A stretch of 64,000 bases of DNA from Tichowtungia aerotolerans (GTDB taxonomy: Bacteria > Verrucomicrobiota > Kiritimatiellia > Kiritimatiellales > Tichowtungiaceae). The notes below the pieces were generated by a model. It did not search any database. It had not been told where the DNA came from and worked only from the letters and a program-made list of their open reading frames with translations. Where the stretch lies: NCBI RefSeq assembly GCF_009905215.1, contig NZ_CP047593.1:1988900-2052899 (forward strand). Direction: 5' to 3'. Every line of letters starts with the position of its first letter. Position 1 is the first letter of the stretch. Below, one piece after another: positions 17,628 to 37,896 of this stretch. The translations under genes were made by a program, and so were the position numbers.

Positions 17628-17662
17628 AATATGCTATTTCTTGTCAATATGCCATATTGTGA
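17628..17662 (+). promoter_or_regulatory. Conserved operator-promoter, site A
   Basis: A 34-bp element with TGCTAT, TTGTCA and a terminal ATATTGTG, matching the element at 37862 in 26 of 34 positions. Its end supplies a -35-like TTGTGA (17657-17662), followed after 18 bases by CATACT (17681-17686). It lies 75 bases before the ATG at 17737 and 18 bases from the start of the divergent AraC gene. Confidence 0.75.
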
Positions 17663-17736
17663 TTTTTCTGCCGGTCGCGGCATACTGGTTCTGCTGGAAA
17701 TCGAATTGGAAAATGAATTTATCGAAAAGTAGCCGT

Positions 17737-18729
17737 ATGGAGAAAATAAAGAAACCGGTTCAGCTTCTGCTGGATACTGATATGGGCAACGACATTGATG
17801 ATGCGCTTGCATTGGCAATGATTCATGCTCTTCAAAGCCGAGGGGAGTGTGAGCTGATTGGCGTGACTGTAAGCAAGGATAATCCGTACGCTGCCATGTA
17901 TGTGGATCTGATCAATACCTTCTATTCCCGAGGGAACATTCCGATCGGCTGTGTCGCAAACGGAGCAACTCCGGAAGAGGGAACGTATGCCCGTCAGGTG
18001 GTGGAATTGGCGGATGACGCGGGTGTCCCTTTGTTTGAGCGGACGATGGGAGATCCGGCGGAATATCCGTCCGCAGTTGCGATGACCCGCCGTCTGCTTG
18101 CTGCGTCTGACGACGAGGCGGTGGTGGTGCTGATGATCGGGTTTTCCACCAATATGGCCCGTCTGCTGGAAAGCAGTCCGGACGAGCATAGCGAGCTGGG
18201 CGGGCTGGAGCTGTTTAAGAAAAAAGTCAGTCATGTCGTGATGATGGCCGGAGAGTTTGCTCCGGACATTCTGGCGGATCCCATGCAGAAGAAGGCCGAG
18301 TTCAACGTCCGGCTGGATGTGCCGTCTGCCCGGGCTTTTATTGCCCGTTGTCCTCGCCCCATCTGGTTTTCCGGGCTGGAGGTCGGAAAGAGTGTCCTGT
18401 ATCCGGCGGCAGCATTGGACGCCGATTACGGCTGGTGCACTTATCACCCGGTTGTGGAAGCGTATAAACGCTATCTGCCGATGCCGTATGACCGGCCGAC
18501 CTGGGATTTGACGGCAGTGCTTTTTGCAGTTCGTCCGGGACAGGGATATTTCGGGGTTTCCGAGCCGGGTCTGGTTAATGTCGATGAAAACGGATATGTT
18601 CGGTTTCGTCCGCATCCAGACGGATTGCACCGCTATTTGACGGTCAATGATCAGCAGCGGGTACTGGTCGGTGAGGTTCAAAATGAACTGGCAGCACAGC
18701 CGTGTGAGGCTGAGACAGTTTTAGCTTAA
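17737..18729 (+). CDS. Nucleoside hydrolase (IUNH) family protein
   Basis: N-glycosidase-family enzyme of about 330 residues with the calcium/ribose-binding motif DTDMGNDIDDALALAM near the N-terminus and the family segment SHVVMMAGEF. The ATG at 17737 is preferred because the motif then sits at the usual position; an in-frame ATG at 17713 adds eight residues. It is followed by an SSF symporter 9 bp downstream and then by an aldolase. The same trio recurs at 39349-42884, so it may hydrolyse a glycosidic bond in an imported compound rather than salvage nucleosides. Expression is expected from the site A promoter. Confidence 0.88.
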   Translation: MEKIKKPVQLLLDTDMGNDIDDALALAMIHALQSRGECELIGVTVSKDNPYAAMYVDLINTFYSRGNIPIGCVANGATPEEGTYARQVVELADDAGVPLFERTMGDPAEYPSAVAMTRRLLAASDDEAVVVLMIGFSTNMARLLESSPDEHSELGGLELFKKKVSHVVMMAGEFAPDILADPMQKKAEFNVRLDVPSARAFIARCPRPIWFSGLEVGKSVLYPAAALDADYGWCTYHPVVEAYKRYLPMPYDRPTWDLTAVLFAVRPGQGYFGVSEPGLVNVDENGYVRFRPHPDGLHRYLTVNDQQRVLVGEVQNELAAQPCEAETVLA

Positions 18730-18738
18730 GGAACGGAT

Positions 18739-20304
18739 ATGGGACTGACGGTATTAGACTACATTGTGCTGGCCGGCTATTTTGCGGCGATGGCCCTGAT
18801 GGGGGTTTATTTTTCGAAACGCAATAAAAACACCGAAGAGTATTTTGTCGGCGGGCGATCATTTGCCGGCTGGGTGATCGGGTTGAGTCTGGTGGGAACA
18901 TCCATCAGCTCCGTAACGTTTCTTGCATTTCCGGCGGATGCATTTAAGACCGCCTGGCTGCGTTATCTGCCGTCGCTGGGGCTGCTGGTCGCCGTGGCGG
19001 TGGCCGCGGTTTTTGTGCTTCCGATTTACCGGCGGCTTCGTCTGACAACGGCCTATGAATATCTGGAGCATCGGTTCGGCCCGTCTGTCCGCGTGTATGG
19101 CGCGGTCGCGTTTGTGATCGGGCAGCTGCTGCGGTTGAGTATTATTTTGTATCTGGTTTCGCTGCTGGTTCATGAGATGACCGGCTGGAACCTGACATTC
19201 TGCATCATCGGATGCGGTGTGTTTGTTGCATTCTACACCATTGTGGGTGGTATTGATGCGGTGATCTGGACCGATGTAATCCAAACGGTTGTGCTGGCTC
19301 TCGGCGGCGTGATCTGTGTGTGTGTGATTATCCATCAGCTGCCGGGTGGGCTGGGACAGATTTTTTCGGTTGCGCTGGCCGATCATAAACTGGCGATTGC
19401 CGATATGCAGCCGGACGGTACGCTTCAGCCGGTCGGGTGGGGGCTTTCTTTGAGCAGCAAAACCGGAACGATGCTGTTAATTTACGGGATTGTCGGTTTC
19501 CTCACAGAATATATGAGCAATCAGAATGTGGTGCAGCGCTACGCCGCTTCCAAAAGTACTCGTGAGGCTCGTAAGGCCATGATTGTGTGTGCGGGTGCGA
19601 GTGTTCCCATCTGGGCGTTTTATATGTTTCTCGGAACATCTCTTTATGTGTTTTTCAAGGTGTTTCCGGTTGATGCCGCTTCGGAAATGCTCAGTGGCGT
19701 TCGCAAGGCCGAGCAGGTCCTTCCGTTCTTTATTATCCATTATCTTCCCCCGGGAGTTACCGGACTGGTGATTGCCGCCGCCGTGGCGGCGGCAATGTCC
19801 TCACTCGATTCATCCATCAACTCCATTTCCGCGGTGGGAGTGACGGATCTTTACAGACGATATTTTGCCAAGGGGAAAAGCGACGGACATTTCATGCGGG
19901 CGGCCTGGAGCATGGCTGTGGTGACAAGTGTGCTGATGATTGTCGGAGCGATTGTTCTTGCGAAAACAGAGACCAAAACGCTTCAGGATGCGGCGACGAT
20001 TGTCGGCTCCCTGCTGGGGGCCGGACTGCTCGGGATGTATATACTCGGTTTCTTTACCCGGCACGGCGATGCCCGCTCGGTGTGGGTCGGCATCCTGTTT
20101 ACCGTGATTTTTACGGCGTGGACGGTGGTTGCGGACCGCTGCCCGGACCTGCTGCCGGAGGCTTTGGCCATTCCATTCGATCTCTATTACACCGGCATCA
20201 TCGGAAACATCCTGATGTTTGTAACCGGATATTTGCTCAGCCTTCTTTTGCCGCGGAAAAAACGTGAGCGACTGGATGAACTGACTGTTTGGGGTGCCCG
20301 TTGA
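18739..20304 (+). CDS. SSF-family sodium:solute symporter
   Basis: Inner-membrane symporter of 521 residues, about 13 membrane segments, with NKNTEEYFVGGRSFAGW near the N-terminus and AAAMSSLDSSINSISAVG in the conserved sodium-site helix. It is the most divergent of the three SSF proteins here but keeps the family-specific C-terminal ELTVWGAR, comparable to NLTVWDQ in the other two. AAGGAACGGAT before the ATG supports the start. Set between a nucleoside hydrolase-like gene and a DHDPS/NAL-family aldolase, it probably imports the substrate or product of those enzymes. Sialic-acid transporters of this family exist but are not proven here. Confidence 0.92.
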   Translation: MGLTVLDYIVLAGYFAAMALMGVYFSKRNKNTEEYFVGGRSFAGWVIGLSLVGTSISSVTFLAFPADAFKTAWLRYLPSLGLLVAVAVAAVFVLPIYRRLRLTTAYEYLEHRFGPSVRVYGAVAFVIGQLLRLSIILYLVSLLVHEMTGWNLTFCIIGCGVFVAFYTIVGGIDAVIWTDVIQTVVLALGGVICVCVIIHQLPGGLGQIFSVALADHKLAIADMQPDGTLQPVGWGLSLSSKTGTMLLIYGIVGFLTEYMSNQNVVQRYAASKSTREARKAMIVCAGASVPIWAFYMFLGTSLYVFFKVFPVDAASEMLSGVRKAEQVLPFFIIHYLPPGVTGLVIAAAVAAAMSSLDSSINSISAVGVTDLYRRYFAKGKSDGHFMRAAWSMAVVTSVLMIVGAIVLAKTETKTLQDAATIVGSLLGAGLLGMYILGFFTRHGDARSVWVGILFTVIFTAWTVVADRCPDLLPEALAIPFDLYYTGIIGNILMFVTGYLLSLLLPRKKRERLDELTVWGAR

Positions 20305-20340
20305 TTCAAAAAAATGATGTAGAAAAACGAAGGAAATGAA

Positions 20341-21246
20341 ATGAAACCGATTTGTGGAATTATACCGCCGGTGGTGACCCCGCTGGCTGCGCAGGACCAA
20401 CTGGATGAGCCGGGGCTGGAGCGACTGATTGAACATATTCTGGCCGGTGGAGTCCACGGTCTTTTTATTCTCGGCACCACCGGAGAGGGACCGGACTGCA
20501 GCTACGCAGTCCGGCGGGCGATGATCGACCGGACCTGCCGGCAGGTTGATGGGCGTGTCCCGGTTCTCGTAGGGATTACGGACACATCGTATGCGGAATC
20601 CGTTTCGCTGGCGAACTATGCTGCGGAGTGCGGTGCGGATGCCGTAGTGGCGGCCCCGCCATATTACTTTTCGGTCGGACAGCCGGAGCTACAGGACTAT
20701 TTTCTGGACCTGTTTGATAAAATGCCGTTACCGGTGATGCTGTACAACATGCCGTCCTGCACCAAGGTGAATATCGGGATCGATGTGCTTCGCAGGTTGT
20801 TGGAGCATCCCAATATGGCCGGGTTCAAAGACAGTTCCGGGCAGATGGTTTATTTCCATCTGGCGCTGCGTCTCTTTGCTGATTATCCGGAGAAAAGCAT
20901 TCTGGTCGGCCCGGAGGAACTGCTGGCTGAATCCACGTTGATGGGCGGACATGGAGGCGTAAGCGGCGGAGCCAACGTGTTTCCGAAGCTGTATGTGAAT
21001 TTATATAACGCGGCCCGAGAAGGGAACCTTTCCGAGACCCGTCGACTGCATGAACTTGTAATTCGAGTGACCGACCTTTATCGGGTTGGACGACATACTT
21101 CGTCGACGATCAAGGGGATTAAAGCCGCGCTCGGCTGTTTGGGAATCTGTTCGGACATCATGCTGGAACCCTTCCGGCATTTCTTTGCGGAGGACCGCAA
21201 ACGGGTTCAGGCAGTGCTGGATGAGCTTCTGCCTAGAATGACATAA
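20341..21246 (+). CDS. DHDPS/N-acetylneuraminate lyase family aldolase
   Basis: Class I, Schiff-base aldolase or synthase of 301 residues. The family marks are complete: GTTGEG at 45-50, the tyrosine Y135 in LYNMP, and the Schiff-base lysine K163 in GFKDSSG. It acts on a 2-keto acid, usually cleaving to or condensing with pyruvate. GAAGGAAATGAA before the ATG gives a good start. As part of a catabolic unit it is unlikely to be the lysine-biosynthesis enzyme DapA; candidates are N-acetylneuraminate lyase or a 2-keto-3-deoxy-sugar-acid aldolase. A paralogue is at 41952. Confidence 0.88.
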   Translation: MKPICGIIPPVVTPLAAQDQLDEPGLERLIEHILAGGVHGLFILGTTGEGPDCSYAVRRAMIDRTCRQVDGRVPVLVGITDTSYAESVSLANYAAECGADAVVAAPPYYFSVGQPELQDYFLDLFDKMPLPVMLYNMPSCTKVNIGIDVLRRLLEHPNMAGFKDSSGQMVYFHLALRLFADYPEKSILVGPEELLAESTLMGGHGGVSGGANVFPKLYVNLYNAAREGNLSETRRLHELVIRVTDLYRVGRHTSSTIKGIKAALGCLGICSDIMLEPFRHFFAEDRKRVQAVLDELLPRMT

Positions 21247-21257
21247 GACGAGGAAAA

Positions 21258-23699
21258 ATGATGAATAAATACAATTGCTTCAAATTGATTTTATCAGGGT
21301 TTGTCTTTTTCAGTTTCAATGCCGTGCTTGGGGTGGATTTCAGCAGTGTGCCGGGAACGGTTCTGGACTACCAGCCCTTGGATTATGATTCGGGATACTC
21401 CGCTCCGCGCGTGTTTATTTCCGACCCGGAAATTCTGGTTCTGTCCAATGGAACCTATCTCGCCGCACATGCGCTGGCCGGACGAAGTTCCAATTCCGAT
21501 GATTCCGGAAAGACTACGGTTTTCCGTTCCACGGACAAGGGAAGTTCCTGGACGGAGCTGACCACGATCCATGGCATTCTTCGGGGCAGTCTGGTGGAAT
21601 ACGGTGGGGCGGTTTATCTGCTGGGGTCGTTGAACGACGATGGCGGCGGCGTTGTCATCTGCAAATCCACCGATCAGGGAGACACCTGGTCCAGGTCGGC
21701 AACATTTGCGATAAGCGGGCTGGCGACTCCGAACAACCCGGTGGTTTTCAATGGCCGCCTGTGGAGCGCCGGCGGCCGGTCCAGTTTTTCCGCGCCGGTC
21801 GAATCGAACTTTCTCGCGGAAGCCTCCTGGACCAAAAGAAACGGATTTCCGGCACCGCAGGATGACTGGCCCTCCGGCATCGCTTTTCTAGGCGAGGGGC
21901 AGCTGGTTGCCTCGCCGGACCTGGGGCTGTATATCATGCCGAAAGTCAAAGGATATCCCTACACAACATTGGCTGCAGTGGACGCATCAACAGGACTGGT
22001 GTCATTTGATCCGGATACGGATTTTGTTTCCTTGCCCGGTGCGGAGAAAAAGTTCGGTGCGGCCTATGATGCGGTGTCCGGTAAGGCTTATGTGCTGAGC
22101 AATCCGATTCTACCGATTCATGAAAATTCAGGTATAGCTCTGGATATGATTCGCAATACCGCGGCATTGCTCAGTTCCAGTGATTTGCGCAACTGGAATG
22201 TTGAAAGAATAGTTATCTATTCCACCGACGAGGAGCAGGACGGGTTCGGCTACATGAACTTTGACGTTGACGGATCGAATATGGTGATTGCCGCACGAAC
22301 CGCCTTTCCGGTCGGCAGCGATGACCCGGAAAGGGGACACGATTCCAACCTTCTGACATTTCATGTCATTCCGAATTTCAGAAACGCCGCGCCGGATCAC
22401 GTCCTGAAACTCTCGGGTGAGAATGTGCTGCGGTATGAAAAAACGAATTACGAAGATGCGCCGCTGGGAGACTTTGCTCTGGGCTCCACATTTGCCGGAG
22501 CAGCGCTGACTTCTCCGGACGGATTCGGCAAGGCGTCCAATGGAGATGTTTACATTCACGAAAGCGGCGGACGGATCCTGCACTTTGATGCGTCCGGAAA
22601 TTTTCTGGGGACCGTTGATGATTCCCCGGTCACATTCCAGGCCTCGGCGTTGAGTATGGATCAGCCGGCAAACGGCGAATGCTCCTGGACCGGTTCGTCC
22701 GGCGGGAACTGGTTTGATTCTTCCAATTGGTATTACTGGGGGCGGGCCGACTCTGCGGGGGAAATTGCGGTTTTCGGCAGCGCATTGACCGGAACAACCG
22801 CTTTCACCGTGGATGAATCGTATACTCTTGCCGGATTCCGGTTCCTTACAACAAGATCCTGTACGTTTTCCGGTTCCGGCGGTTTGATGATTGAAGGAAC
22901 CAATGCTCTTTTCGATATTTACAGGGGCTCCCATGAGATCGAACTTCCGGTGACGCTGAATCAGGATGCGCTGTTTTCTGCGAATCCCGGAACGGATTTA
23001 ACAATAGATGGCGCCCTTGATTTGAACGGGAGCACGTTGACGGCGGAAGGTTCCGGCGAATTGAAAGTGGAAAACGGAAATGTTGCACTGAAAGGCGGAT
23101 CATTCATTGTTGGTGGCGGATCTGTTGTGTTTACAAACACCCTGTGTCGGTTCGGCGGGGGGGCGGTGGAGTTTGCGGTTCCGGCCGGTTTTTCTCCGGA
23201 AGAAGGGGACAGTTTTCATCTTATGGAAGGCGATATTCCGGATGACATTGCGGATCATATCGTCCTGCCTGCATTGGCAGCAGGATTGACATGGGATACG
23301 TCCGCTCTTCTGTCCAGCGGGAATGTGTCTGTTATTGTGAAGGTGCCGGAAGAGTGGATGAGTCAATACGGCCTGGCGACAAGCGGGGTGGAGGATTTTA
23401 TTGATTCCGATGGAGACGGAATGGACAACTACTCTGAATGGAAGGCGGGAACCGATCCGCTTGATGCTCATTCCTTTTTTACCTGCAGTGCTTCCGCAAC
23501 GGCAGCCAATGGGTTCGGGCTGCATTGGGCCGGCCAGACCGGCCGCACATATCGGGTGGATTATTCCACAAACCTGACATCCGTTCCGGCTTTTACCACG
23601 CTTCGATCCGGAATTCCCGGAATAGACGGCCTGAATGAATTTGCAGACACAAACCGGACGGCATATCCATCTGTCTATTATCGAATTGTTGTCGAATAG
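21258..23699 (+). CDS. Secreted sialidase-fold protein with beta-strand repeat region and C-terminal domain
   Basis: An 813-residue exported protein. After the signal peptide (to about residue 25) comes a sialidase/BNR propeller (about 30-400) with Asp boxes RSTDKGSSWTE and KSTDQGDTWSR. From about 470 to 690 the sequence becomes strand-rich and Gly/Asn/Thr-rich (CSWTGSSGGNWFDSSNWYYWG onward), like autotransporter-associated beta repeats. A calcium-type segment (DSDGDGMDNYSEW) and a C-terminal domain follow (GRTYRVDYSTNLTSV ... YYRIVVE), related to the ends of the proteins at 4070 and 5873. GAGGAAAA precedes the start. Probably an extracellular exo-glycosidase or glycan-binding protein of the locus. 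Confidence 0.8.
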   Translation: MMNKYNCFKLILSGFVFFSFNAVLGVDFSSVPGTVLDYQPLDYDSGYSAPRVFISDPEILVLSNGTYLAAHALAGRSSNSDDSGKTTVFRSTDKGSSWTELTTIHGILRGSLVEYGGAVYLLGSLNDDGGGVVICKSTDQGDTWSRSATFAISGLATPNNPVVFNGRLWSAGGRSSFSAPVESNFLAEASWTKRNGFPAPQDDWPSGIAFLGEGQLVASPDLGLYIMPKVKGYPYTTLAAVDASTGLVSFDPDTDFVSLPGAEKKFGAAYDAVSGKAYVLSNPILPIHENSGIALDMIRNTAALLSSSDLRNWNVERIVIYSTDEEQDGFGYMNFDVDGSNMVIAARTAFPVGSDDPERGHDSNLLTFHVIPNFRNAAPDHVLKLSGENVLRYEKTNYEDAPLGDFALGSTFAGAALTSPDGFGKASNGDVYIHESGGRILHFDASGNFLGTVDDSPVTFQASALSMDQPANGECSWTGSSGGNWFDSSNWYYWGRADSAGEIAVFGSALTGTTAFTVDESYTLAGFRFLTTRSCTFSGSGGLMIEGTNALFDIYRGSHEIELPVTLNQDALFSANPGTDLTIDGALDLNGSTLTAEGSGELKVENGNVALKGGSFIVGGGSVVFTNTLCRFGGGAVEFAVPAGFSPEEGDSFHLMEGDIPDDIADHIVLPALAAGLTWDTSALLSSGNVSVIVKVPEEWMSQYGLATSGVEDFIDSDGDGMDNYSEWKAGTDPLDAHSFFTCSASATAANGFGLHWAGQTGRTYRVDYSTNLTSVPAFTTLRSGIPGIDGLNEFADTNRTAYPSVYYRIVVE

Positions 23700-23761
23700 T
23701 GTGTTTGGATTGAATGACGGTTTTTGAACAGGAAAACAAAATATCAGAAAGGTGATAAGTT

Positions 23762-24508
23762 ATGGATCTGTCGAAACAGGTGATTGTATCGTGGCTGGCT
23801 TTGATTGGAATAGCCGTTGCCGGGAATTCTTCGTTTTATACGCCGGAGGAGGACCTCGGCGGGTTGACCTATCACCGGGCGGCCAATGATCAGTTGCCTA
23901 ATGTGCTGATTATCGGGGATTCGATTTCGATTGGGTATACGACCCCGGTCATTGAAAAACTGGCGGGCATAGCCAATGTGGAGCGTATTCCCGTGAACGG
24001 CGGGGATACAGCGAGCGGCTTGCGAAGAATCAATCATTGGGTGGGGCAGAAAAAATGGGATGTGATTCATTTTAATTTTGGACTGCACGACCTGTGCTAC
24101 CGCCACCCCGATTCCCCCAATCATGGTCACCGGGATAAGATCAACGGGACGATTGCGGTTCCGCTGGATCAGTATGAAAAGAACCTGGAACAGCTGGTCG
24201 CCCGGCTGGAAGCGACCGGCGCGGCCCTGGTGTGGGCTTCGACCACTGTGGTGCCCGATGGAGAACTCGGACGCATTGCGGGGGATGAAATCCGATACAA
24301 CCAGGTCGCCGCCCGGGTGATGAAAAAACATCATATTGCCATGGATGATCTGCATGCGGTGACGGCGTCTTTCGGGCCCGAATTATTCCGGGCTTTCGGA
24401 GACGTTCATTATGTGAAAGCAGGGTATGAGGAACTTGCCGGTCAGGTTGCTGAATCAATTAAAAAAGCATTAGGTGAAAAAGTGAAACAGGGGTCGAATC
24501 ATGAATAA
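23762..24508 (+). CDS. Secreted SGNH/GDSL-type hydrolase
   Basis: Predicted exported esterase of 248 residues. The SGNH blocks are visible: VLIIGDSISIG (nucleophile serine), NGGDTASG (oxyanion glycine/asparagine region), FGLHDLC in place of the usual GxND, and a C-terminal DVHYVKAGY with the Asp-His pair. The signal sequence is modest (VIVSWLALIGIAVAG). It overlaps the sulfatase gene by eight bases, so the two are translationally coupled and probably de-esterify and de-sulfate the same glycan. Acetyl or other acyl esters are likely substrates. GAAAGGTGATAAGTT precedes the ATG. Confidence 0.85.
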   Translation: MDLSKQVIVSWLALIGIAVAGNSSFYTPEEDLGGLTYHRAANDQLPNVLIIGDSISIGYTTPVIEKLAGIANVERIPVNGGDTASGLRRINHWVGQKKWDVIHFNFGLHDLCYRHPDSPNHGHRDKINGTIAVPLDQYEKNLEQLVARLEATGAALVWASTTVVPDGELGRIAGDEIRYNQVAARVMKKHHIAMDDLHAVTASFGPELFRAFGDVHYVKAGYEELAGQVAESIKKALGEKVKQGSNHE

Positions 24509-25952
24509 AAGAAATATAGCGAAAATAGGTTTGGTTGGTGTCAGTGCCTGTGTGTCCGGTTGGGGCGGTCAGGTTTTCGGTGAAGAGCATGCCCGTCCAA
24601 ATATTGTGTTCATGCTGGCAGACGATCATGGTCCCTGGGCGTTCGGGCGCGGCGGAAGCAGTGATGCAATAACGCCGAACCTTGACCGGTTGGCTGATGA
24701 AGGCGGCGTTTTTACGCATCTGTTCGGACCGGCAGCGGTTTGCAGTCCGGGGCGGGCATGCCTGATCACCGGACGATACAGTACGGAGGTGGGGGTGCCT
24801 GACTATCTGGGCGAAGATCCGCAAATAGGACTGGAGCAGGACTTCATGACGTGGCCTTCCCTGTTAAAGGACGCAGGCTACGCCACGGCGCTGTTCGGGA
24901 AGTGGCATCTGGGAGAGCAGGATCGTCATCATCCAACCGCCCATGGATATCAGGAGTTCAAGGGTTGGCGGATCGGTGCCGGCATTTCGAAGGATCCGGT
25001 GATTGAAATAGATGGCGAGGATGTGAAGGTCAAAGGGTATACCCCGGACATTCTGGCCGACTATGGAGTCGATTTTATTAAACGTCATAAGGATGCCCCG
25101 TTTTTGCTTTCGGTTCACTTCTGGGCGCCGCACGCAAACCACGGTGTGAAAACGGAAGGAGACAGAACCTGGCTCCCGTTGAAGGATGAGGATTGGCTTC
25201 TGTTCAAAGATCTCGATCCGGTGATTCCGAACCCCGATTATCCCAAACTGGATATTCACCGGGTGAAACGAATGACCCGCGAATATCTTGCTTCAGTTCA
25301 CAGTGTGGACCGGAATGTCGGCAGAATTATGGCGGTTCTGGACGAACTGCATCTGGCTGATAACACGATTGTCATTTATACGGCGGATAACGGGTTTAAC
25401 ATCGGACACAATGGAATATGGCACAAGGGAAACGGCAGGAAAATTCTGACGAATAACCGGAGTGCCAGACCCAACCTCTGGGATAATTCCGTGCGGCTGC
25501 CGGGAATCATTCGCTGGCCGGGCGTGGTTGCTTCCGGGGAAGTGTACACCGATACGGTGACAAGTCTGGATTGGTTCCCGACCCTGTGCGCTGCTGCCGG
25601 CGTAGACTGCAGTGCGTATCCTGTGAGAGGCCGCAACCTTTACGGGTTTCTTCAGGGGCGTTCTGCAGATTGGAACAACAGTTTTTTCGGCCAGTATAAA
25701 ATGTGGGACTGGAACCAGGGCGGGGCGGATATGCGAACCTATCGGACGCCCCGTTGGAAGCTGGTTCGGGACTTTAACGGGGTTATTTCTGATGAGCTCT
25801 ATTATTTGTATGAAGATCCGAGTGAATGGCACAACCTGATTGATGTCAATGAGCCGCAGGTTCAGAAGTATAGGGAAATGCTGAACCGGAAACTGATGGA
25901 ACAGATGCGGGAAATTGACGATCCGTCTTTGCCTGACAGTCATCGGGATTAG
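24501..25952 (+). CDS. Secreted type I sulfatase
   Basis: Formylglycine-dependent sulfatase (alkaline phosphatase superfamily, S1 type) of 483 residues. The signal sequence is about residues 1-27. Metal ligands D41-D42 in LADDHG and the D296-N297 pair in TADNGFNIG are present, as are K134 and H136 of GKWHLG. The modification motif is C81-S-P-G-R85, with Gly where Ser or Ala is usual. The enzyme should cleave a sulfate ester from an oligosaccharide outside the cytoplasm. No sulfatase-maturing enzyme is encoded in this window, so it must lie elsewhere. It overlaps the SGNH gene. Confidence 0.93.
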   Translation: MNKRNIAKIGLVGVSACVSGWGGQVFGEEHARPNIVFMLADDHGPWAFGRGGSSDAITPNLDRLADEGGVFTHLFGPAAVCSPGRACLITGRYSTEVGVPDYLGEDPQIGLEQDFMTWPSLLKDAGYATALFGKWHLGEQDRHHPTAHGYQEFKGWRIGAGISKDPVIEIDGEDVKVKGYTPDILADYGVDFIKRHKDAPFLLSVHFWAPHANHGVKTEGDRTWLPLKDEDWLLFKDLDPVIPNPDYPKLDIHRVKRMTREYLASVHSVDRNVGRIMAVLDELHLADNTIVIYTADNGFNIGHNGIWHKGNGRKILTNNRSARPNLWDNSVRLPGIIRWPGVVASGEVYTDTVTSLDWFPTLCAAAGVDCSAYPVRGRNLYGFLQGRSADWNNSFFGQYKMWDWNQGGADMRTYRTPRWKLVRDFNGVISDELYYLYEDPSEWHNLIDVNEPQVQKYREMLNRKLMEQMREIDDPSLPDSHRD

Positions 25953-25993: not shown

Positions 25994-26028
25994 TGCATGC
26001 TATGAATAGTCGTTTGGTCATATGGTTT
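25994..26028 (+). promoter_or_regulatory. Conserved operator-promoter, site D (diverged copy)
   Basis: A weaker copy matching the 37862 element at 21 of 34 positions, with TGCTAT and CATAT in register. A GATAAT hexamer (26045-26050) stands where the other copies have their -10. It ends 86 bases before the ATG at 26114 and splits the LamG tandem from the sulfatase unit. Confidence 0.5.
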
Positions 26029-26113
26029 TACTGGTGAATGAGTGGATAATTATCGTTGTGAGTTAAAAAAGGTATTGAATGTTAACGGATAAGAATCGGA
26101 AGGAGTAAAGGAT

Positions 26114-27082: not shown

Positions 27083-27103
27083 GATCTGTAAATATAAGTA
27101 GTG

Positions 27104-28504: not shown

Positions 28505-28540
28505 TTGGATGTGTGTGATTTTTCTGGGGTAAAAGATATA

Positions 28541-30310
28541 ATGAGTCCTTTTTGTTTTTTGATAGGTCGGCGCTGTGTTTTTCTGTATTTATGTTTTCTG
28601 TTTCTTTTCATTTTCACGGCCGGTTCTGAAACCATAGCCCAATGGGATTTTGAAAATGGATCCGGGACCGATGGAATTTCCGGGCTGACACCGTTGCCGT
28701 ATGATTCCAGCGTTGTGACGCTGAACGACGGGGTGCTGCTGTTGGATAATCAGAATCGATCCGATGCCGAAGGGTCCATATGGGTCATTCCGGACGATCC
28801 TGTTTTGACCGGGCATGCCGATGGCGGATCGGGATATACTTCGCTGATTCTGGAAGCGGATGTGAAACCATCGGCAGTCAGCGAACAGATGCAGCTTATT
28901 CGAAAAATGGATGGAGAGCTCGGGTATCAACTTTTTATTCGAAAGGATGGCCGGATCAGTTTCCGGATACGAACCGACGAAGGAGCATTTGCTGCGACCA
29001 GTAAAAATGCAATAGCTGCGGACGGTCGGTGGCACCATATTGAGGCCGTTTGGGACAGCAGTCTTTGGAGTTATAACATACACCTTGCCGTGGATGGGGT
29101 TGTTGCCTGGAAGTCGACCAAAATTAAAAACCTGACCGATACGACGGGTCCGCTGACCATTGGCGGGCTGTATCGTTCGGCGGGGAATATCGGGCAGCGC
29201 TTTTCGGGGCAGATTGATAACGTTCAGATCAGCGTAGACCGTCCCGAAGTCATGCAGAAGCCAGGCAGGCCTCTCGAAGACCCGGCGGTTATGACCGGTC
29301 AGCATCTGACGAATCAGCCTGGGTTTTTGTCCATGCAGTTTGTGTATCAGGAACCGGTTACGCCGGAGTGTCATGCCGGCACTTTGGTGCAGCGCCCGGA
29401 CGGTTCGGTGATGGCCGCCTGGTTTGGCGGTACTCATGAAGGACATGTGGATGTCCGGATCTGGCAGAGTGTGTTTGATGGATCTCGCTGGTCGGATCCT
29501 CGCGATGTTGTTGCTCAGGGAACGTTTAAAGACGGCAGTCCGAGTTCTGTCTTTAATCCGGTACTGTTCCAGTATCCGGATAGCGGTCCGATGCTTCTTT
29601 TCTATCTCAGTGGTAATTTTAATCCCGGAAATATGATGAGCAGCTATGATGGAGGCCGCACCTGGTCTGATTGGGTCGTTTTGCCGGGAGATATTCGAGG
29701 GGCTTCTAAAAATAAGCCGATTCTGTTGGATGACGGAACATTGATCTGTCCTGACAACGGGAATAAGGGGCTTAAGTTTGACCGGACCCGCGACTTTGGA
29801 AAAACATGGTTGGAGTCCGGCCTGACGCCGCCCGGCGAAATTGATGCGATTCAGCCGGCCCTTCTTGTGCATCAGGACGGCCGCCTGCAGGCGCTGGCCC
29901 GTTCTAAAACCGGATCCATTGTGACAACCTGGTCCGAAGACCAAGGGGCCACATGGTCTGCGTTGGAAAAAACATCTCTGCCGAATAATTATTCGGGAAT
30001 TGATGCGGTGACGCTGTCCGATGGTCGGTTTGTGGTTGTTTATAATCATTCAGGTATGAAGAAGAATGGTGGTTGGGGAGCCCGCACGCCGTTGAACATT
30101 GCGGTGTCAGACGACGGAATTAACTGGTCGGCCGCTGTCGTCCTTGAAGACGAAGAGGGAGAATATTCCTATCCGGTGATCATTCAGTCTTCAGACGGAA
30201 GGCTGCATGTGCTCTACACGTGGCATCGCCTGCGCATGAAGCATGTGGTTCTTGATCCCGAAGCCTTTGAGCTGGCTCCGATCGTCGACGGAAAGTGGCC
30301 GAGCTTCTGA
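28541..30310 (+). CDS. Secreted LamG-sialidase (BNR-type) protein
   Basis: About 589 residues. I chose the ATG at 28541 because it directly precedes the hydrophobic signal (CVFLYLCFLFLFIFTAGSE); a TTG at 28505 would abut the previous stop. Residues 30-230 form a LamG domain (TIAQWDFENG ... RWHHIEAVW). Residues 260-580 form a BNR-type sialidase domain with CHAGTLVQRPDGSVMAAWFGGTHEG and Asp boxes SYDGGRTWSD, SEDQGATWS and SDDGINWS. It should be an exo-acting glycosidase outside the cell. GH33 sialidase or another family with the same propeller, such as GH93, are the options. Confidence 0.85.
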   Translation: MSPFCFLIGRRCVFLYLCFLFLFIFTAGSETIAQWDFENGSGTDGISGLTPLPYDSSVVTLNDGVLLLDNQNRSDAEGSIWVIPDDPVLTGHADGGSGYTSLILEADVKPSAVSEQMQLIRKMDGELGYQLFIRKDGRISFRIRTDEGAFAATSKNAIAADGRWHHIEAVWDSSLWSYNIHLAVDGVVAWKSTKIKNLTDTTGPLTIGGLYRSAGNIGQRFSGQIDNVQISVDRPEVMQKPGRPLEDPAVMTGQHLTNQPGFLSMQFVYQEPVTPECHAGTLVQRPDGSVMAAWFGGTHEGHVDVRIWQSVFDGSRWSDPRDVVAQGTFKDGSPSSVFNPVLFQYPDSGPMLLFYLSGNFNPGNMMSSYDGGRTWSDWVVLPGDIRGASKNKPILLDDGTLICPDNGNKGLKFDRTRDFGKTWLESGLTPPGEIDAIQPALLVHQDGRLQALARSKTGSIVTTWSEDQGATWSALEKTSLPNNYSGIDAVTLSDGRFVVVYNHSGMKKNGGWGARTPLNIAVSDDGINWSAAVVLEDEEGEYSYPVIIQSSDGRLHVLYTWHRLRMKHVVLDPEAFELAPIVDGKWPSF

Positions 30311-30459: not shown

Positions 30460-31248
30460 TTACAGTATGTTCTGCTGCTGCTTCCGCCACTGTCCGGGCG
30501 GAATCCCGTGTATTTTCCGGAAGGTTCGAATGAAATAATTCACATCGGGATATCCGCAGATGGCGGCAACTTCTTTGACAGACAGGTACGGAGTTTGCAG
30601 TGCGAATTTTGCGGCCTGCATACGCTGGGTGTTTAAATATTGAAGCGGGCTGGTGTCGAGGTGTTCCCGGAAGAGCATCTGAAGGTGGCTGACGCTCATG
30701 TGCATGTGATCGGCAAGCTCCTTGATCAGCAGAGGTTTGTCCAGATTGTCATCAATGTACCGCAGGGTAACCCGTAGCATCGGCGGAATTGTTTTCTGTT
30801 CTTCGTGAAGAGAATGCTGGTGCCGGAGCTGTTTGAGAACAGCGGAAAAGACGGTGTCTGCGGCATCTTCTGCTGCCTGAAGCTGGCTGAGACGTATAGA
30901 GACCAGCAGCATCATGCATTTTTCAATAAAAGCAGCATCGGGCAGCGGAATCACGTGGGGCTCGGGAAATGTCAGCGATGCCGGTGCATTGAATCCGCAG
31001 AAGACCGTTTCGATCGGTTCTTCTGCGGCCTGGTCGTGCACCTGATGTGCCGGCATGGTGATAATGTCGCCGGCGCTTGCCTGGAGCGTATGCGGTCCGG
31101 CGTGCACTGTGCATGAGCCTTTTTTGATAAGGATCAGTTCGGAGCAGGCATGCGCGTGTTCGCGAATGTTGCTTTCGTAGCAGCAGCTGGCAAAGACCAG
31201 TTTGACGGATTCTGCCGTCGGCGGGGTTCGTTGTGAGAGCTTATCCAT
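30460..31248 (-). CDS. AraC-family regulator, paralogue 2
   Basis: A 262-residue regulator with a cupin sensor (CSELILIKKGSCTVHAG, AGDIITMPAHQVHD) and a C-terminal double helix-turn-helix (LLIKELADHMHMSVSHLQMLF; SVKEVAAICGYPDVNYFIRTF). It is the same length as the regulator at 16821 and matches it closely throughout, so one arose by duplication. A partial operator (TGCTAT type) lies 37 bases upstream of its start and a full one at 31425, which suggests autoregulation and control of the divergent unit starting at 31533/31806. Confidence 0.9.
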   Translation of the reverse strand: MDKLSQRTPPTAESVKLVFASCCYESNIREHAHACSELILIKKGSCTVHAGPHTLQASAGDIITMPAHQVHDQAAEEPIETVFCGFNAPASLTFPEPHVIPLPDAAFIEKCMMLLVSIRLSQLQAAEDAADTVFSAVLKQLRHQHSLHEEQKTIPPMLRVTLRYIDDNLDKPLLIKELADHMHMSVSHLQMLFREHLDTSPLQYLNTQRMQAAKFALQTPYLSVKEVAAICGYPDVNYFIRTFRKIHGIPPGQWRKQQQNIL

Positions 31249-31284: not shown

Positions 31285-31304
31285 AATGTGCTATTAAGTC
31301 AGGT
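31285..31304 (+). promoter_or_regulatory. Partial operator half-site upstream of AraC paralogue 2
   Basis: The first ten bases (AATGTGCTAT) are identical to those of the sites at 31425 and 37862 and are followed by a GTCAGG, but the second half has decayed. It sits 37 bases upstream of the AraC start and could mediate autoregulation. Confidence 0.4.
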
Positions 31305-31424: not shown

Positions 31425-31459
31425 AATGTGCTATAAATTGTCAGTTTGACAGGTTGTGA
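31425..31459 (+). promoter_or_regulatory. Conserved operator-promoter, site B
   Basis: Matches the 37862 element at 29 of 34 positions. The core TGTCA-GTT-TGACA is a perfect inverted repeat where site C has TGCCA-GTT-TGGCA, so the change is compensated in both arms. TTGTGA (31454-31459) and CATAAT (31478-31483), 18 bases apart, form a sigma70-like promoter. Confidence 0.75.
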
Positions 31460-31532
31460 GATGTTTCGGAGACGGGGCATAATAAAAACACTCGGGGTTT
31501 TTTCCACGACGATGGGATACAGGAGTTGTTTA

Positions 31533-31754: not shown

Positions 31755-31805
31755 TGTTCTGCGGGAGTTGGGCCCGGGGCGGAGCTTTTAAAATTGGAGA
31801 TGCTG

Positions 31806-34526
31806 ATGTTTGTAATGAAAAAATGTGTATGTTTTGTTTTAGGGCCAGCCTTAATTAAAATGGTGGGGTGCTGTTTTGTTATGGGTGCTTTTTCGGTTTG
31901 TGCGGATTCTTTCAGTGATTCAGAAATTGTGTCGCTTTCCTTTGAATCCGGCCCGGATTGTTGTGATCAAAACGGTGTGGCTGGAAGTTATCTTAAAACC
32001 GATGCCGGCAGTAGCGAGTTATTTAGAGCATTCGGTTCGTTGATTTCCGGTCCGGTAACTGTTTCCTGCTGGATTAAAATCGACTCTTTTCCGGAAAATG
32101 GCGCTGCTGCATGGACAGATCAAAGTCCTATGACGGTTTATCGAATGTATCCTGCCGGTCACGATGTGGCGGCTTACTGCCGAATCTATAAGAAACGGGT
32201 GCGGGTCAGTTATTATCAAAGCGGTGTGCTGGATATTAATCTGGATGGTGTCACAGAGCTGGAAACCGATCAATGGTATCACATTACGGTTACAGATGAC
32301 GGCGTTCGAGAAATTCGTTTGTACGTGAACGGGGTTTTGGACGCCAAGGCATCGAATGGGTTTTCGCGTCCGGCATGGGTAGGAATTAATTTGGTGCAGA
32401 TGGGTGGCCGACGGCATTTGCTGGGCGGGTTGGATGAGCTTCGTGTTTTCAACAAAAGTTTATTGAGCGAGCAGGTGACGGGTCTGATGAAGGAAGGTGT
32501 TCGGTCGAGCGATCTTTCGGAAATTCAAAATTCCACATCCAAAAGCAGTTCGTTATATGGTTGGTATCCGGCTCTGAAAGTGAAGGATAATGTGTTGCAT
32601 CCGCTGATTGACCAGTTGTGTTGCAGTGCTACGGTGCTTCCATGGTATGGTGCGAACTCTAAAGATTTGCTTCTGCGTGGGGCAGATAACATGCTCGGAA
32701 CGCGGACGGCGGTTTATCGGTATCTGGGTGAGCATCAGGGGTTGCCTGTGTATGATTCCGGAACAACCATTAAGAATCTGCCCGGGAAAAATTATCAGGC
32801 GGTGGTTCGCGAAAACGGGCTGTTCGATATTTATGCGAATGGATATGAGACGATTTACGGCAAAAAGAGCATTATCCGTTATGTGAATTGCGGTGTGGCT
32901 GGGGCTCCGAAATTTGGCGAAGCGGAACTGGTGTTTGTTGATGGAGAGGATATTAGTTCTGCACTTGGCAGTAGGCAGCTTTCAGGTTGGTGCATTACTG
33001 ATGTGGATGGCGATCAAACGCCGGATCTGCTGTTTGCGGGAATCACTGTTCCGGGCGAAGGATACTGGCCTTTTGGTCAGAGCCCGTGGTCAGGCCGGGA
33101 TATGCCTCACATTGGTGCGGGCAAAGGGTATGATGTCCGCGGACAGTGGCTGGGGGGGCATCGAATCAGTGAGGTTTTTTGGGCGAAGGGCTCTCGGAAT
33201 CGCAATGGAGATCTTAGCTTTTCTAATAGCCAGATGGTGTATGACCGAATGACGGGTAATTCGCTCAAATGGCTTTCCGGGGAGTCGGAGCGCGCTCTGA
33301 ATGTGATAGAGTGCGAAGGGAAGCGCTATCTGCTTCAGACAGGGAGCGTAGATGAAATTCTGGCATTTCAAATGCAGTGGGAAGACGGGGATCTGGTTTG
33401 TGCTGCCGCTGAGAATGTGTTGGGCAGTGGGCCGACTGTGAGGGAAACCTATTTCCCTGCAAAGGTTGTTGTCGAGGATATGGATAACGATGGTGTTCCC
33501 GAGATTCTCCTCGACGGGAATCCTGGTCGCATTGTGATGCTGAAGGGATCTCGGATCGGAGCTTTTGAAGAAGTGGGTTCGGTTCTGATGAAGGGCGGTT
33601 CGGTTGCCGGAGATACGTTGGTTGCGCCTTGTCGCGTGGACTGGACTGGGAATGGGGCCGATGATTTGATTGTGGGGGATGCTTCCGGTTGGCTTGTGTT
33701 TTGGCCGGGAACCGATGATGCAACCGTTTATGGAACTCCGACGTTTATGAGAACGGGTGACGAAGTGGTTCACCATCAGGCTGGATATTCCGGTTCCATT
33801 CAGGGACCGAATGAAAAACGGTGGGGTTATCTCAAGCCAACGGTGGGGCACTGGAACGGTGATTCGAAGCCGGACCTGATTTCGAACGATATTGAGGGTC
33901 GCTTGTTTCTGTATGAACGGACCGATGATCCGATGGTGCTGACATCTCCGGTTCCATTTGCGCTGAACGGAAAGCCGTTGCAGATTGCATGGCGTGCTGG
34001 ACCCGCCATCATTGACTCAAAATATGCGTATGGTGGTGCTGTACAAAGCGCATTGCTGTTGGTGGACTGGAACGGAAATTTGTCCGTTGGGGTTCCGCAT
34101 CAGCCGGGTGGAACGAATTTTTCATCGATTGATAAGTTAACATATGAGGATGGCTCTCCCATGATCATGTGCGGCCCTGCCGGGCATTGGGGGCGGACTT
34201 GTGTTTCTGTTGTCGACTGGGATGAGGACGGTGTCTGGGATGTTGTTTGCGGTTCAATCAATGGCTGTAATCTTTATATTCTCGGCGAAAAGCTTAGCTC
34301 CGGTGGTACAACGCCGCTCTTTATCAGGAACATCGGATCAAACAGTGATCCGGTGTTTGCTCGTCCGGTGCCGATCCGAAAGGCGGATGGAAGCCTGTTG
34401 AATTTCAGGATTCATACGGCAACGCCATGGCCGACAGATCTGGACGGGGATGGACGCCTGGATCTTCTTGTTGGTGCGGAAGATGGCAAAGTCTACAGTT
34501 TGTATCGGGATGATCTTTCCTGGTAG
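31806..34526 (+). CDS. Secreted LamG/FG-GAP beta-propeller protein
   Basis: About 906 residues. The ATG at 31806 follows GGAG by six bases and precedes a signal sequence (CVCFVLGPALIKMVGCCFVMGAFSVCA). Residues 35-225 are LamG-like (VSCWIKIDSFPENG ... LGGLDELRVFN). From about 390 there are repeated calcium-binding FG-GAP/VCBS blades: DVDGDQTPDLLFAG, DMDNDGVPEILLDG, GNGADDLIVGD, NGDSKPDLISND, DEDGVWDVVCGS and DLDGDGRLDLLVGA. Such propellers occur in adhesins and some polysaccharide lyases, and no active site was identified. It is followed after 58 bases by a beta-helix protein, with which it probably acts. Confidence 0.8.
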   Translation: MFVMKKCVCFVLGPALIKMVGCCFVMGAFSVCADSFSDSEIVSLSFESGPDCCDQNGVAGSYLKTDAGSSELFRAFGSLISGPVTVSCWIKIDSFPENGAAAWTDQSPMTVYRMYPAGHDVAAYCRIYKKRVRVSYYQSGVLDINLDGVTELETDQWYHITVTDDGVREIRLYVNGVLDAKASNGFSRPAWVGINLVQMGGRRHLLGGLDELRVFNKSLLSEQVTGLMKEGVRSSDLSEIQNSTSKSSSLYGWYPALKVKDNVLHPLIDQLCCSATVLPWYGANSKDLLLRGADNMLGTRTAVYRYLGEHQGLPVYDSGTTIKNLPGKNYQAVVRENGLFDIYANGYETIYGKKSIIRYVNCGVAGAPKFGEAELVFVDGEDISSALGSRQLSGWCITDVDGDQTPDLLFAGITVPGEGYWPFGQSPWSGRDMPHIGAGKGYDVRGQWLGGHRISEVFWAKGSRNRNGDLSFSNSQMVYDRMTGNSLKWLSGESERALNVIECEGKRYLLQTGSVDEILAFQMQWEDGDLVCAAAENVLGSGPTVRETYFPAKVVVEDMDNDGVPEILLDGNPGRIVMLKGSRIGAFEEVGSVLMKGGSVAGDTLVAPCRVDWTGNGADDLIVGDASGWLVFWPGTDDATVYGTPTFMRTGDEVVHHQAGYSGSIQGPNEKRWGYLKPTVGHWNGDSKPDLISNDIEGRLFLYERTDDPMVLTSPVPFALNGKPLQIAWRAGPAIIDSKYAYGGAVQSALLLVDWNGNLSVGVPHQPGGTNFSSIDKLTYEDGSPMIMCGPAGHWGRTCVSVVDWDEDGVWDVVCGSINGCNLYILGEKLSSGGTTPLFIRNIGSNSDPVFARPVPIRKADGSLLNFRIHTATPWPTDLDGDGRLDLLVGAEDGKVYSLYRDDLSW

Positions 34527-34584
34527 AAGTTGCTCTTAGAGCTTTAGGTGGCTGCGTGAGTAGATCAAAAGAGAGAATCTTAGA

Positions 34585-37500
34585 ATGATCAATGGTTTTC
34601 TGTTTGTGGCTTTTTCTTTTTTTCTGCGGCCGGAACCCATTGAATGTCGGACGGTTTATCAGAAATTTGACGGGACACAGGTTTGGTCCTCCAGTATTGG
34701 AAGTTCGGCGAATCTTCAGACGGTGATTGAGACCGGTGCTCAGTATTTGCACGCGGATTTTTTTCGCAACAGTTCTGATTCCGGACGAGTCGCAATCTGC
34801 GGGGAGCTGGGGAATGCTGCAATTCCGGCGGGAACGACAGCCGGCAATGTGCCTCCTTTCTGGATGGAGTTTGATACCAGAACTTTTGAGGGCAGCGGAC
34901 TCAACACCTTTGTCGGTCTGTTTAATGATTCTGGCGATAATGATGACCATCCGCAACTGAACTGGATTGGTGCAGTACTTTCTGTTGGAGGAGTGCATGG
35001 GACGACCAAGAACAGTAGCGGATATTTGGCAAGCACACCAATAGCGCTGGACGGAACGGGCGTTTTGCACCGAGTCAAAATGAAGGTTTATAATACCGGG
35101 GAGCAAACCCTGATGGACGTTTCCCTGTACCGAATTGATGACGAGACATTTGAGGTGGAACAAATCAACGAGATCGCAGGTTTCGTTGTTCTTGATGAGG
35201 GCGAAAGCTTTGTGCAGGGACTGGATGTTTTTGGGGTTCGGAATAAAATTAATTCTGAGCAGATACCCCCGTCGTATCTTTCCGCCGATTTGGACAATCT
35301 GTATTTTTCTCTGGAAACGGCCAATAAAGAACAGCCGGTTCCGTCGTTTGCGCCCCTGTGTGTCAGTGCAAAACTATCGACAGGATCTCCGTATTTTGAC
35401 CCGTGGAATACAGACCGCTGGTCCGAATGGTATTCTGGAACAAACCTGATTAAATCATTTGCCGTCGATTGTAATGTTGTGCTTGCCGATCGCGGAGGAA
35501 GCACCAACCGCTGGAAGCCATCTGTTTCTCAGCTTTCATCCGGACGATTGTTTTATCTCGGGAACTGTTCCCGAGGTATTACATTTGATGGAAATGGGCA
35601 ATATATCGATGCACGCTTAGGAAAGGCATCGTCTGTGACGGTGCAAACTCTATACGAACATTACGAGGAATACTCTCACAGCATTCGTCATCCTCTGACA
35701 AATTGTTTCTACTGTGTTGGAATAGAAGAACCGACGTTTGATGAAACCATCATTCGTGACCTTTGGGTTTTTGGCTGTATTCATGCGTTTAGAACTGGTG
35801 GCATTTCTCATCCGGTGACGGTAGATGCGGTCAGATTTCGACAGAATTTCTGGAGTGCACTGCTGAGCGGAAAAAATACGACCATCAGTCATTGTAGTCT
35901 TATGGAGGGTGCGTGGGGCGGGTTATATTTGGGATATGGCTCTTCATTCAATCATATTGAATACGTTTCCTGGAGAGATAATAACTACCAGCAGCATAAG
36001 TATTACAGTGATATTGCAGTAGATTCCAGTTATGGGAACCTGATTGAGAACTGCACGCACGAAGCGCCTAGCGGCGGGGATTACCACGTTGCTGTTAAAA
36101 TGTTTCGTAATATGGGAGAGGGGCCCGGTGGTATTGCTCATCATTTAAGAGAAACTCCACCCAATGACAACATTTTTAGAAATAACTCGATTGCCGGATA
36201 CAGCGTTGGGTACGAAGCTGCTGCGCGAATGGGAGAGGATATTGTTTACGACCTCTCTGGAGAAGGGCGAGATTATGCTTCGTATAATCTTTTTGAAGAC
36301 AACAGCTTTTTCAGCACATCTGTTGGCATTAAGGTGAATGTTTCAGGAAACTCTATTAGAGGAAACCTTTTCCAGAATGTGATACATCCGATAGTGCTTC
36401 ATTGTGTGTTTTACAGCCTGACTGAAACACGAATTGAAGATCAGGATGGAACCCGAGTATCGTTCTGGGAGAAAAATTCTGATTATACAGGCAGTCCAGA
36501 TTATGCAAAGTGGTTCTCTCTGCAGAACGATCTAAATTCTGATACAGATCCTTCTGAACGCTATTTCCATTTGAGTTATTCCGGGGCTCCTGCTTTTGAC
36601 ACTTTTACCGGCTCTTCCGTATTGGTCAAACAAACTGATAATAACACGTCCCAAATTATAAACCGATCTACAATGAAGGATGTTTATGCTTCGGGTGGAA
36701 CGCCGGTGGATATAGCCATCGGTAATTTCTGGGATAGTAACCCGGGGGATGAAATTGCAATTATCTGGGATGCTCCGGTTTCGCGGATTGCAGGAACAAA
36801 TTACTATTCAATTATTATTTATGACACAAACGGAATTGAAGTGAACCGTTGCGGGAAAAGTACGGTGCCATGGCGGGCGATTGCTTCTGGAAACTTTATC
36901 AGCCTTTTAGGGGATGAGATTGCGGCGGTTCCGGAAACGGCAGTTGACGGGAAATATCCGATTTATGTTTTTGCCCGGGGACGCGAACATGCCAGCTATA
37001 CAAATATCCCGAACAATACAGTCAAAATTCATTGCTTGGCGGGAGGCGACTTTAATCCCTCATTGAGATTTGACGAAATCGCTTATGTAAGTTCGAGTGC
37101 AAGAACCGTTATTCAGCATGTGAAGCCATCGTCTGATTGGACTGAAGAGACCGTGAGTCCGTCCTGGATTCTTGATGTTGCAGCCGGAGATTTTGATTTG
37201 ACCGCGGACGGAGACGAGATTGCAATGATTCGTAATACTCGTCGGGCTCTGGTCTATCTCTTCCATCCCGGTGATTTGACATATTATTCCACGGTCGGTC
37301 CGAATAGCGGTCCGACTTTCGGCGCTCTTGCCGCCGGAAATTTTGATGGGGATGCAACAGAAGAAATGGCGGTGGCTTTGGAAGATGTCGTTAACGGCGA
37401 GTATCCGATTCACTGCTTCAACCCAGGTGATAGTAGCGCGTTTAAGGAACTCAGCCAGAATGTACTGGGCGTCCCGGCACAGGCTATCGCAGCCTGTGAT

Positions 37501-37707
37501 GTTACAGTGGGGGAAACCCTTGGTGTTTACGAACGTGCTCAGGGGTTTTTCAGCGCAGACTATGGCGCGACGATGTCGGATTGGGGGAAATGTATCGCGG
37601 TGTTGCCTTCTGCTCCGCAGATCACAGCTGTACCTGTTTTTCTTTTGAATGCCGCTCCTGCTGATAACACAGATGAATATCTCAAAGTCGTTCCGATAGT
37701 TAGATGA
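34585..37707 (+). CDS. Secreted right-handed beta-helix protein with C-terminal propeller-like repeats
   Basis: About 1040 residues with a short hydrophobic N-terminus (NGFLFVAFSFFL). The middle (about 360-640) reads as a parallel beta-helix: short repeated turns with N and C ladders (NTTISHCSLMEG, GNLIENCTHEAP, DNIFRNNSIAG, YNLFEDNSFFS, NSIRGNLFQNV). This is the fold of pectate-lyase-type and other polysaccharide-active proteins. Residues about 715-980 hold repeated GNFWDSNPGDEIAII, GDFDLTADGDEIAMI and GNFDGDATEEMAVAL units, akin to FG-GAP blades. It is likely an extracellular lyase or glycosidase, but no catalytic residues can be named. Confidence 0.72.
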   Translation: MINGFLFVAFSFFLRPEPIECRTVYQKFDGTQVWSSSIGSSANLQTVIETGAQYLHADFFRNSSDSGRVAICGELGNAAIPAGTTAGNVPPFWMEFDTRTFEGSGLNTFVGLFNDSGDNDDHPQLNWIGAVLSVGGVHGTTKNSSGYLASTPIALDGTGVLHRVKMKVYNTGEQTLMDVSLYRIDDETFEVEQINEIAGFVVLDEGESFVQGLDVFGVRNKINSEQIPPSYLSADLDNLYFSLETANKEQPVPSFAPLCVSAKLSTGSPYFDPWNTDRWSEWYSGTNLIKSFAVDCNVVLADRGGSTNRWKPSVSQLSSGRLFYLGNCSRGITFDGNGQYIDARLGKASSVTVQTLYEHYEEYSHSIRHPLTNCFYCVGIEEPTFDETIIRDLWVFGCIHAFRTGGISHPVTVDAVRFRQNFWSALLSGKNTTISHCSLMEGAWGGLYLGYGSSFNHIEYVSWRDNNYQQHKYYSDIAVDSSYGNLIENCTHEAPSGGDYHVAVKMFRNMGEGPGGIAHHLRETPPNDNIFRNNSIAGYSVGYEAAARMGEDIVYDLSGEGRDYASYNLFEDNSFFSTSVGIKVNVSGNSIRGNLFQNVIHPIVLHCVFYSLTETRIEDQDGTRVSFWEKNSDYTGSPDYAKWFSLQNDLNSDTDPSERYFHLSYSGAPAFDTFTGSSVLVKQTDNNTSQIINRSTMKDVYASGGTPVDIAIGNFWDSNPGDEIAIIWDAPVSRIAGTNYYSIIIYDTNGIEVNRCGKSTVPWRAIASGNFISLLGDEIAAVPETAVDGKYPIYVFARGREHASYTNIPNNTVKIHCLAGGDFNPSLRFDEIAYVSSSARTVIQHVKPSSDWTEETVSPSWILDVAAGDFDLTADGDEIAMIRNTRRALVYLFHPGDLTYYSTVGPNSGPTFGALAAGNFDGDATEEMAVALEDVVNGEYPIHCFNPGDSSAFKELSQNVLGVPAQAIAACDVTVGETLGVYERAQGFFSADYGATMSDWGKCIAVLPSAPQITAVPVFLLNAAPADNTDEYLKVVPIVR

Positions 37708-37861
37708 GCGTCAGTCAGGACATAGCTTGACCTTTTAGAATATAGTCATATTTATAAATTCATATCAGATGGATATTCATATTTTGGCCGGTAAAGCAGG
37801 CCGGATGATACATCTTCCAGTCTTTGGAATGAACGTCGATATGTCTCCGGGTATTTGCCAA

Positions 37862-37896
37862 AATGTGCTATCAATTGCCAGTTTGGCATATTGTGT
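37862..37896 (+). promoter_or_regulatory. Conserved operator-promoter, site C
   Basis: The reference copy of the element: TGCTAT, then TTGCCA-GTT-TGGCA as an inverted repeat, ending in ATATTGTG. TTGTGT (37891-37896) is followed 17 bases later by TAGGAT (37914-37919), a plausible promoter. It ends 76 bases before the ATG at 37972, the first gene of the LamG/symporter/hydrolase/aldolase/FucI unit. Confidence 0.75.

Follow-up and report, generated by a model that had tools for sequence, protein, structure and literature searches.

In Escherichia coli, AraC binds at pBAD/pC (sites araI and araO) beside or over the -35 hexamer, and its gene is divergent from the target operon. The system described here shares with it a regulator built of a cupin sensor and two helix-turn-helices (HTHs), a site that overlaps the -35, and a divergent regulator gene. 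It differs in the sequence of the site, in lacking a clean 17-bp direct repeat at 21 bp, and in having two paralogous regulators and several scattered targets. Two AraC-family regulators over sugar catabolism are also known in E. coli, namely the rhamnose-use activators RhaR and RhaS. Each of these recognizes an inverted repeat of its own, made of two half-sites (PMC3870299), whereas here one type of site stands at all units and no inverted repeat is conserved. As in the rhamnose regulons of AraC type, the motif is lineage-specific and was recognized at catabolic operons by phylogenetic footprinting (PMC3870299; RegPrecise). Those regulons belong to other lineages (the text of PMC3870299 mentions neither Verrucomicrobia nor Planctomycetes), and it is by lineage that we distinguish them here. 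Polysaccharide-use clusters of Kiritimatiellota (Pontiella, Tichowtungia; PMC10880615, PMC7356697) show a similar sulfatase-rich glycan degradation; the words "transcriptional regulator" do not occur in PMC10880615, and we found no paper on such an operator or on AraC regulons in these lineages. What we describe is probably an ordinary AraC-type regulon, with a textbook mechanism, that is new in its sequence and its lineage. Regulators of polysaccharide use seem hardly characterized in these sulfatase-rich bacteria, and AraC-type genes number over 40 in the genome examined here.

The window is a stretch of 64,000 nucleotides from Tichowtungia aerotolerans. It contains four copies of a 34-bp element and, next to two of them, a pair of paralogous araC genes:

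17628..17661, + strand: operator copy A, between the divergent araC1 (- strand) and the nucleoside-hydrolase-like gene IUNH1 (+ strand); 26/34 identical to copy C
25994..26027, + strand: operator copy D, weaker, 5' of a LamG-LamG-LamG/BNR unit; 21/34 identical to copy C
31425..31458, + strand: operator copy B, 5' of a LamG/FG-GAP unit; 29/34 identical to copy C
37862..37895, + strand: operator copy C, 5' of gene 37972 and possibly of the SSF/IUNH/DHDPS/FucI genes
16821..17609, - strand: AraC1, 262 amino acids, candidate binder; cupin-type sensor and C-terminal AraC HTH (Pfam: HTH_18, 1.3e-22; AraC_binding, 2.1e-9)
30460..31248, - strand: AraC2, 262 amino acids, candidate binder; 60% identical to AraC1

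These positions and identities are exactly those given by an earlier, sequence-only reading of the window. Copies A and B agree at 25/34 positions, and the mutual range among A, B and C is 25-29/34. Both regulators match the AraC-type double HTH (PF12833 and PF00165) and the N-terminal cupin sensor (PF02311, AraC_binding) above cut-off, and AraC1 has PDB matches to the DNA-binding domains of XylR and AraC. A third AraC-family gene (15918-16817) is convergent with araC1, 3 bp away, and has no operator copy upstream.

We consider it likely that the 34-bp element serves a small AraC-family regulon as its operator, with AraC1 and/or AraC2 as its predicted activators. The recurrence of the element was assessed with a position matrix built from A, B and C, against simulated sequences of the same length as the window. 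The simulated best score is 10.8 +/- 2.6 (maximum 18.0), while A, B and C score 47-51 when included in their own matrix and 30.0, 36.9 and 39.3, respectively, when held out. The held-out score of copy D, 13.3, is the highest remaining among 128,000 positions, yet by score it has P~0.15 in the window alone; this figure is what speaks for a chance similarity among AT-rich intergenic stretches. When two sites from another genome (E and F of genome G238, see below) are added to the matrix, D reaches 21.2, the next match being at 7.1, and we therefore accept it; with these sites included, A, B, C and D, each held out, outrank all other positions of the window. Chance similarity is also contradicted by the conservation in other genomes and by the genome-wide search given below, where five copies and no other position reach E-values of 4.5e-7 to 1e-4, so that we regard it as having almost no probability.

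The locus also carries duplicated SSF, IUNH, DHDPS and araC genes (the IUNH-SSF-DHDPS set occurs at 17737-21246 and again at 39349-42884), and the copies could accordingly be promoter DNA that was recently duplicated along with its genes. The flanking sequences argue otherwise. Identity between copies is 6-16/40 upstream and 7-16/34 downstream, about the chance level, while the element itself is kept; for the fifth copy (described below) the upstream figure is 18/60, and the site is conserved across classes. The element is thus a constrained site, selected as such and not merely a part of a copied promoter, and recent duplication is scarcely credible as an explanation.

Within the element, the sequence-only reading had drawn attention to an inner inverted repeat (TGYCA/TGRCA) whose two arms change together in copies B and C. 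The paired change occurs between B and C only; intact in these two, the repeat is broken in copies A and D and in sites E, F and I, and for this reason we do not retain it as a defining feature. The length of 34 bp would fit two tandem half-sites of approximately 17 bp; compared with itself, the matrix shows weak maxima at 16 bp (0.44) and 18 bp (0.43). The element has no two equal half-sites in clean tandem: box 1 repeats at 18 bp and box 2 at 16 bp.

The genome was scanned with profile models that apply a first-look filter, by which weak copies may be missed. A model of the four copies recovers A-D at E-values from 3e-7 to 1e-5, copy C being the best match in the genome (E 2.9e-7), and adds one weak match at about 3,237,797 (E 0.14). 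That match is 31/34 identical to copy A, which rules out an element confined to the cluster in the window. A further weak match, at 3009420, lies within a coding gene and was dropped. The additional features are as follows:

L106:9799-9832 (genome position 3,237,798, ~3.24 Mb), intergenic: fifth operator copy, 1.2 Mb from the window
L106:10063-15688: TPR-TPR-ExbB-ExbD-ExbD operon, starting ~230 bp downstream of the fifth copy

The fifth copy has the same putative -10 hexamer as copy A (CATACT) at the same 18-bp spacer, and no AraC gene is found among the annotated genes of the 19-kb stretch around it. With this copy in the model, the five copies range from E 4.5e-7 to 1e-4 and the next match (E 0.40) is inside a coding gene. 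The proposal of a single AraC regulon holds up as far as the shared module and the tie to the AraC lineage are concerned, but its extent had been drawn too narrowly; the regulon is small and, given a copy in a distant intergenic region, extends beyond the window to the TPR-ExbB-ExbD unit. A scannable site that connects the AraC pair with five units of one genome, among them an unforeseen ExbB/ExbD system, can serve as a starting motif for related genomes. Its value is one of assignment, not of mechanism.

Relatives of AraC1 and AraC2 were sought in samples of 388 genomes (phylum), 273 (the order of G238) and 240 (own class). The single close orthologue in these samples is that of G238, a genome of a different class, at 55% identity; none was found in the 239 other sampled genomes of the own class. 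In G238, araC and an IUNH gene (59% identity) are transcribed divergently, and a LamG-BNR gene (60%) follows the latter. A core set shared at 55-60% identity with another class, when the sampled genomes of the own class have no close AraC1/2 relative, suggests horizontal transfer of araC, IUNH and LamG-BNR together. A tree groups AraC1 with AraC2 to the exclusion of the G238 protein (SH-aLRT 93), and the duplication that made the pair is accordingly younger than its separation from that orthologue.

Does the element accompany these relatives? When 60 kb around the orthologous araC were scored with the position matrix, the two best matches, E and F, flank araC; the scores are 27.4 (P~5e-4) and 22.6 (P~3e-3), compared with 10.0 +/- 3.2 for the best random scores. 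Site E occupies the intergenic space that araC shares with the divergent IUNH gene, ahead of the IUNH and LamG-BNR orthologues, just as copy A lies between araC1 and IUNH1: an orthologous site at an orthologous promoter. Site F is just behind araC, ~95 bp before a secreted-protein gene. The whole G238 genome (4.5 Mb) has no match besides E and F, by models that include E and F, whose E-values there are for this reason not independent; model R1 gave no match in G238 and, in a phylum-wide scan, only weak matches outside its own genome. On a Phycisphaeraceae contig (L031), from another phylum and with an AraC of 35% identity, related sites are found 5' of both LamG genes that flank araC. Their top score is 18.4, a value attained by 1% of simulations; they are 26/34 identical to each other, and the nearest window copy is D (23/34 and 20/34).

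A link between the element and the AraC1/AraC2 lineage is supported by this conservation beside araC in another class and another phylum. It bears directly on whether some other regulator, for instance the third AraC of the window or a protein encoded elsewhere, recognizes the element, the proximity of araC1 and araC2 being incidental. Candidates are plentiful, with the third gene in the window and about 40 more AraC genes in the genome. Yet the element travels with AraC1/2 relatives in both G238 and L031, and the third AraC finds matches in the G238 stretch at the HTH level only, the best of them being the AraC1 orthologue. We consider a different regulator quite improbable.

The promoters downstream of the element are similarly arranged. 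The putative -10 hexamers in the window are:

17681..17686, + strand: CATACT, unit A, 18 bp past TTGTGA
26045..26050, + strand: GATAAT, unit D, spacer 16
31478..31483, + strand: CATAAT, unit B, spacer 18
37914..37919, + strand: TAGGAT, unit C, spacer 17

The -10-like hexamers that had been reported 16-18 bases after the element are all present. A hexamer with at least 4/6 identity to TATAAT at a spacer of 16-18 is found at five of the six sites A-F (A, B, C, D and E; the background is 0.085 per site) and not at site F. The operon-side -35 hexamers, for which the end of the element (TTGTG) stands in, are poor (2-4/6). In the AraC family, activation from a site over the -35 is known as class II. 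A poor -35 covered by the site, and a -10 that follows at 16-18 bp, fit the suggestion of class II activation without proving it. On the L031 contig the -10 candidates are ~6 bp further downstream, and this geometry may not be universal.

The distance to the first start codon, reported as 75, 74, 76 and 86 bp, is correct as arithmetic, but the value of 74 for copy B does not lead to the start of the gene. The ORF that begins with the ATG at 31533 is just 73 codons long and stops at 31754; the LamG/FG-GAP gene starts at ~31794-31818, in the same frame and ~260-290 bp beyond that codon. This ORF (31533-31754) has a good ribosome site and a signal-peptide-like start, ends in TAG, and has no relative in the window. 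It may be a leader peptide, a gene remnant or the result of a nonsense mutation. Nor is a spacing from element to start conserved more widely, being 95-140 bp in other genomes and ~230 bp at the fifth site.

We infer from this arrangement how the regulon might work, including binding, the arrangement of the dimer, activation, the inducer and the sharing of sites by both paralogues. A dimer of AraC1 and/or AraC2, each with a cupin sensor and two HTHs, would bind the element once a breakdown product of the target glycan fills the sensor. The promoter-proximal ATTGTG would then place it over the -35, from where RNA polymerase would be recruited to the -10 hexamer 16-18 bp downstream. Secreted LamG and sialidase-like proteins, a sulfatase, an esterase, a symporter, an aldolase and a nucleoside-hydrolase-like enzyme would be induced together, as would the distant TPR-ExbB-ExbD membrane system. 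Since the element recurs before these units and is conserved in distant bacteria next to a regulator gene of this type, the two sister proteins probably co-activate these sugar-use units.

The same AraC operator could instead be mainly a repressor site that blocks polymerase until the inducer arrives, or it could repress araC and activate the operons. The overlap with the -35 is compatible with this; copy A also spans a TTGACA hexamer that points to araC1, and a TGTGCTA box lies close 5' of many araC genes. The poor operon-side -35 hexamers are, however, those of promoters that depend on an activator, not of strong promoters in need of repression, and we think a mainly repressing role unlikely. 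For araC1 itself, autoregulation through copy A is likely, given that this copy overlaps the region just upstream of the gene.

Which genes would the predicted activator control? Families are from Pfam:

17737..25952, + strand: unit A, with IUNH1, an SSF symporter, a DHDPS-family aldolase, an 813-amino acid protein (weak TSP3), a GDSL esterase and a sulfatase
26114..30310, + strand: unit D, with two LamG proteins and a LamG-BNR (sialidase-like) protein
31794..37707, + strand: unit B, with a secreted LamG/FG-GAP protein and a 1040-amino acid protein without Pfam family
37972..39093, + strand: first gene of unit C, 373 amino acids, with a signal-peptide-like start and without Pfam family
39349..44803, + strand: SSF2, IUNH2, DHDPS2 and FucI, candidate members of unit C after a gap of 255 bp

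A terminator-like hairpin (30414-30433) lies past unit D. The 255-bp gap before 39349 contains neither an element nor a terminator-like site, so that FucI may belong to unit C, reached by read-through from copy C, or may stand outside it. The fucose isomerase and kinase genes, at which an L-fucose regulon would carry the element, do not have it: there is no copy directly 5' of FucI (43010), and a scan of the whole window yielded none at the genes at 12736 (FucI-like) and 14253 (FGGY kinase). The closest solved relatives of the pathway proteins are the sodium:solute symporter 5nv9, aldolases of the DHDPS/N-acetylneuraminate-lyase type, and sialidases B and C. The symporter 5nv9 is a sialic acid transporter. 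On these similarities, fucose is no better a candidate substrate than a sialic-acid-like compound. A third SSF gene (1047-2618) is 75% identical to SSF2, and a nucleoside-hydrolase-fold enzyme is found next to a sialidase-like protein and a lyase-type aldolase.

At more distant homologues a part of the element appears to recur. We took the region upstream of the best AraC homologue (~30% identity) in each of 28 other genomes. None has the full 34-bp element above noise, while the core box alone is common: TGTGCTA lies upstream of araC in 15/28. The box TTGTGCTA, which was noticed post hoc in this set, is present exactly in 14/28 (permuted words: mean 0.4, maximum 4), and 24/28 have it with at most one mismatch (mean 6.2, maximum 16). 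Among held-out second-rank homologues it is exact in 3/19 and within one mismatch in 12/19 (permuted mean 4.0, maximum 10); ten further held-out homologues give 0/10 and 4/10 (mean 2.0, maximum 8), and no exact copy precedes any of 20 other araC genes in the genome of the window. We propose with moderate confidence that TTGTGCTA is a half-site of a wider AraC subfamily. It is tempting to go further and imagine a large subfamily, phylum-wide with one case in Planctomycetota, that has kept an old, slowly changing core of TTGTGCTA and a downstream ATTG at its own genes and at operons for secreted LamG proteins, a tentative view that we hold slightly more apt to fail than to stand. If true, this core could predict glycan-use regulons in these bacteria. 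In the window, an isolated half-site-like TGTGCTAT (31285..31297, + strand; box 31287-31294) just 5' of araC2, with the same box that precedes many distant araC homologues, is a possible autoregulatory site. The TGTGCTA box was seen 5' of same-phylum araC homologues at L076-L080, L085-L091, L095, L097 and L098.
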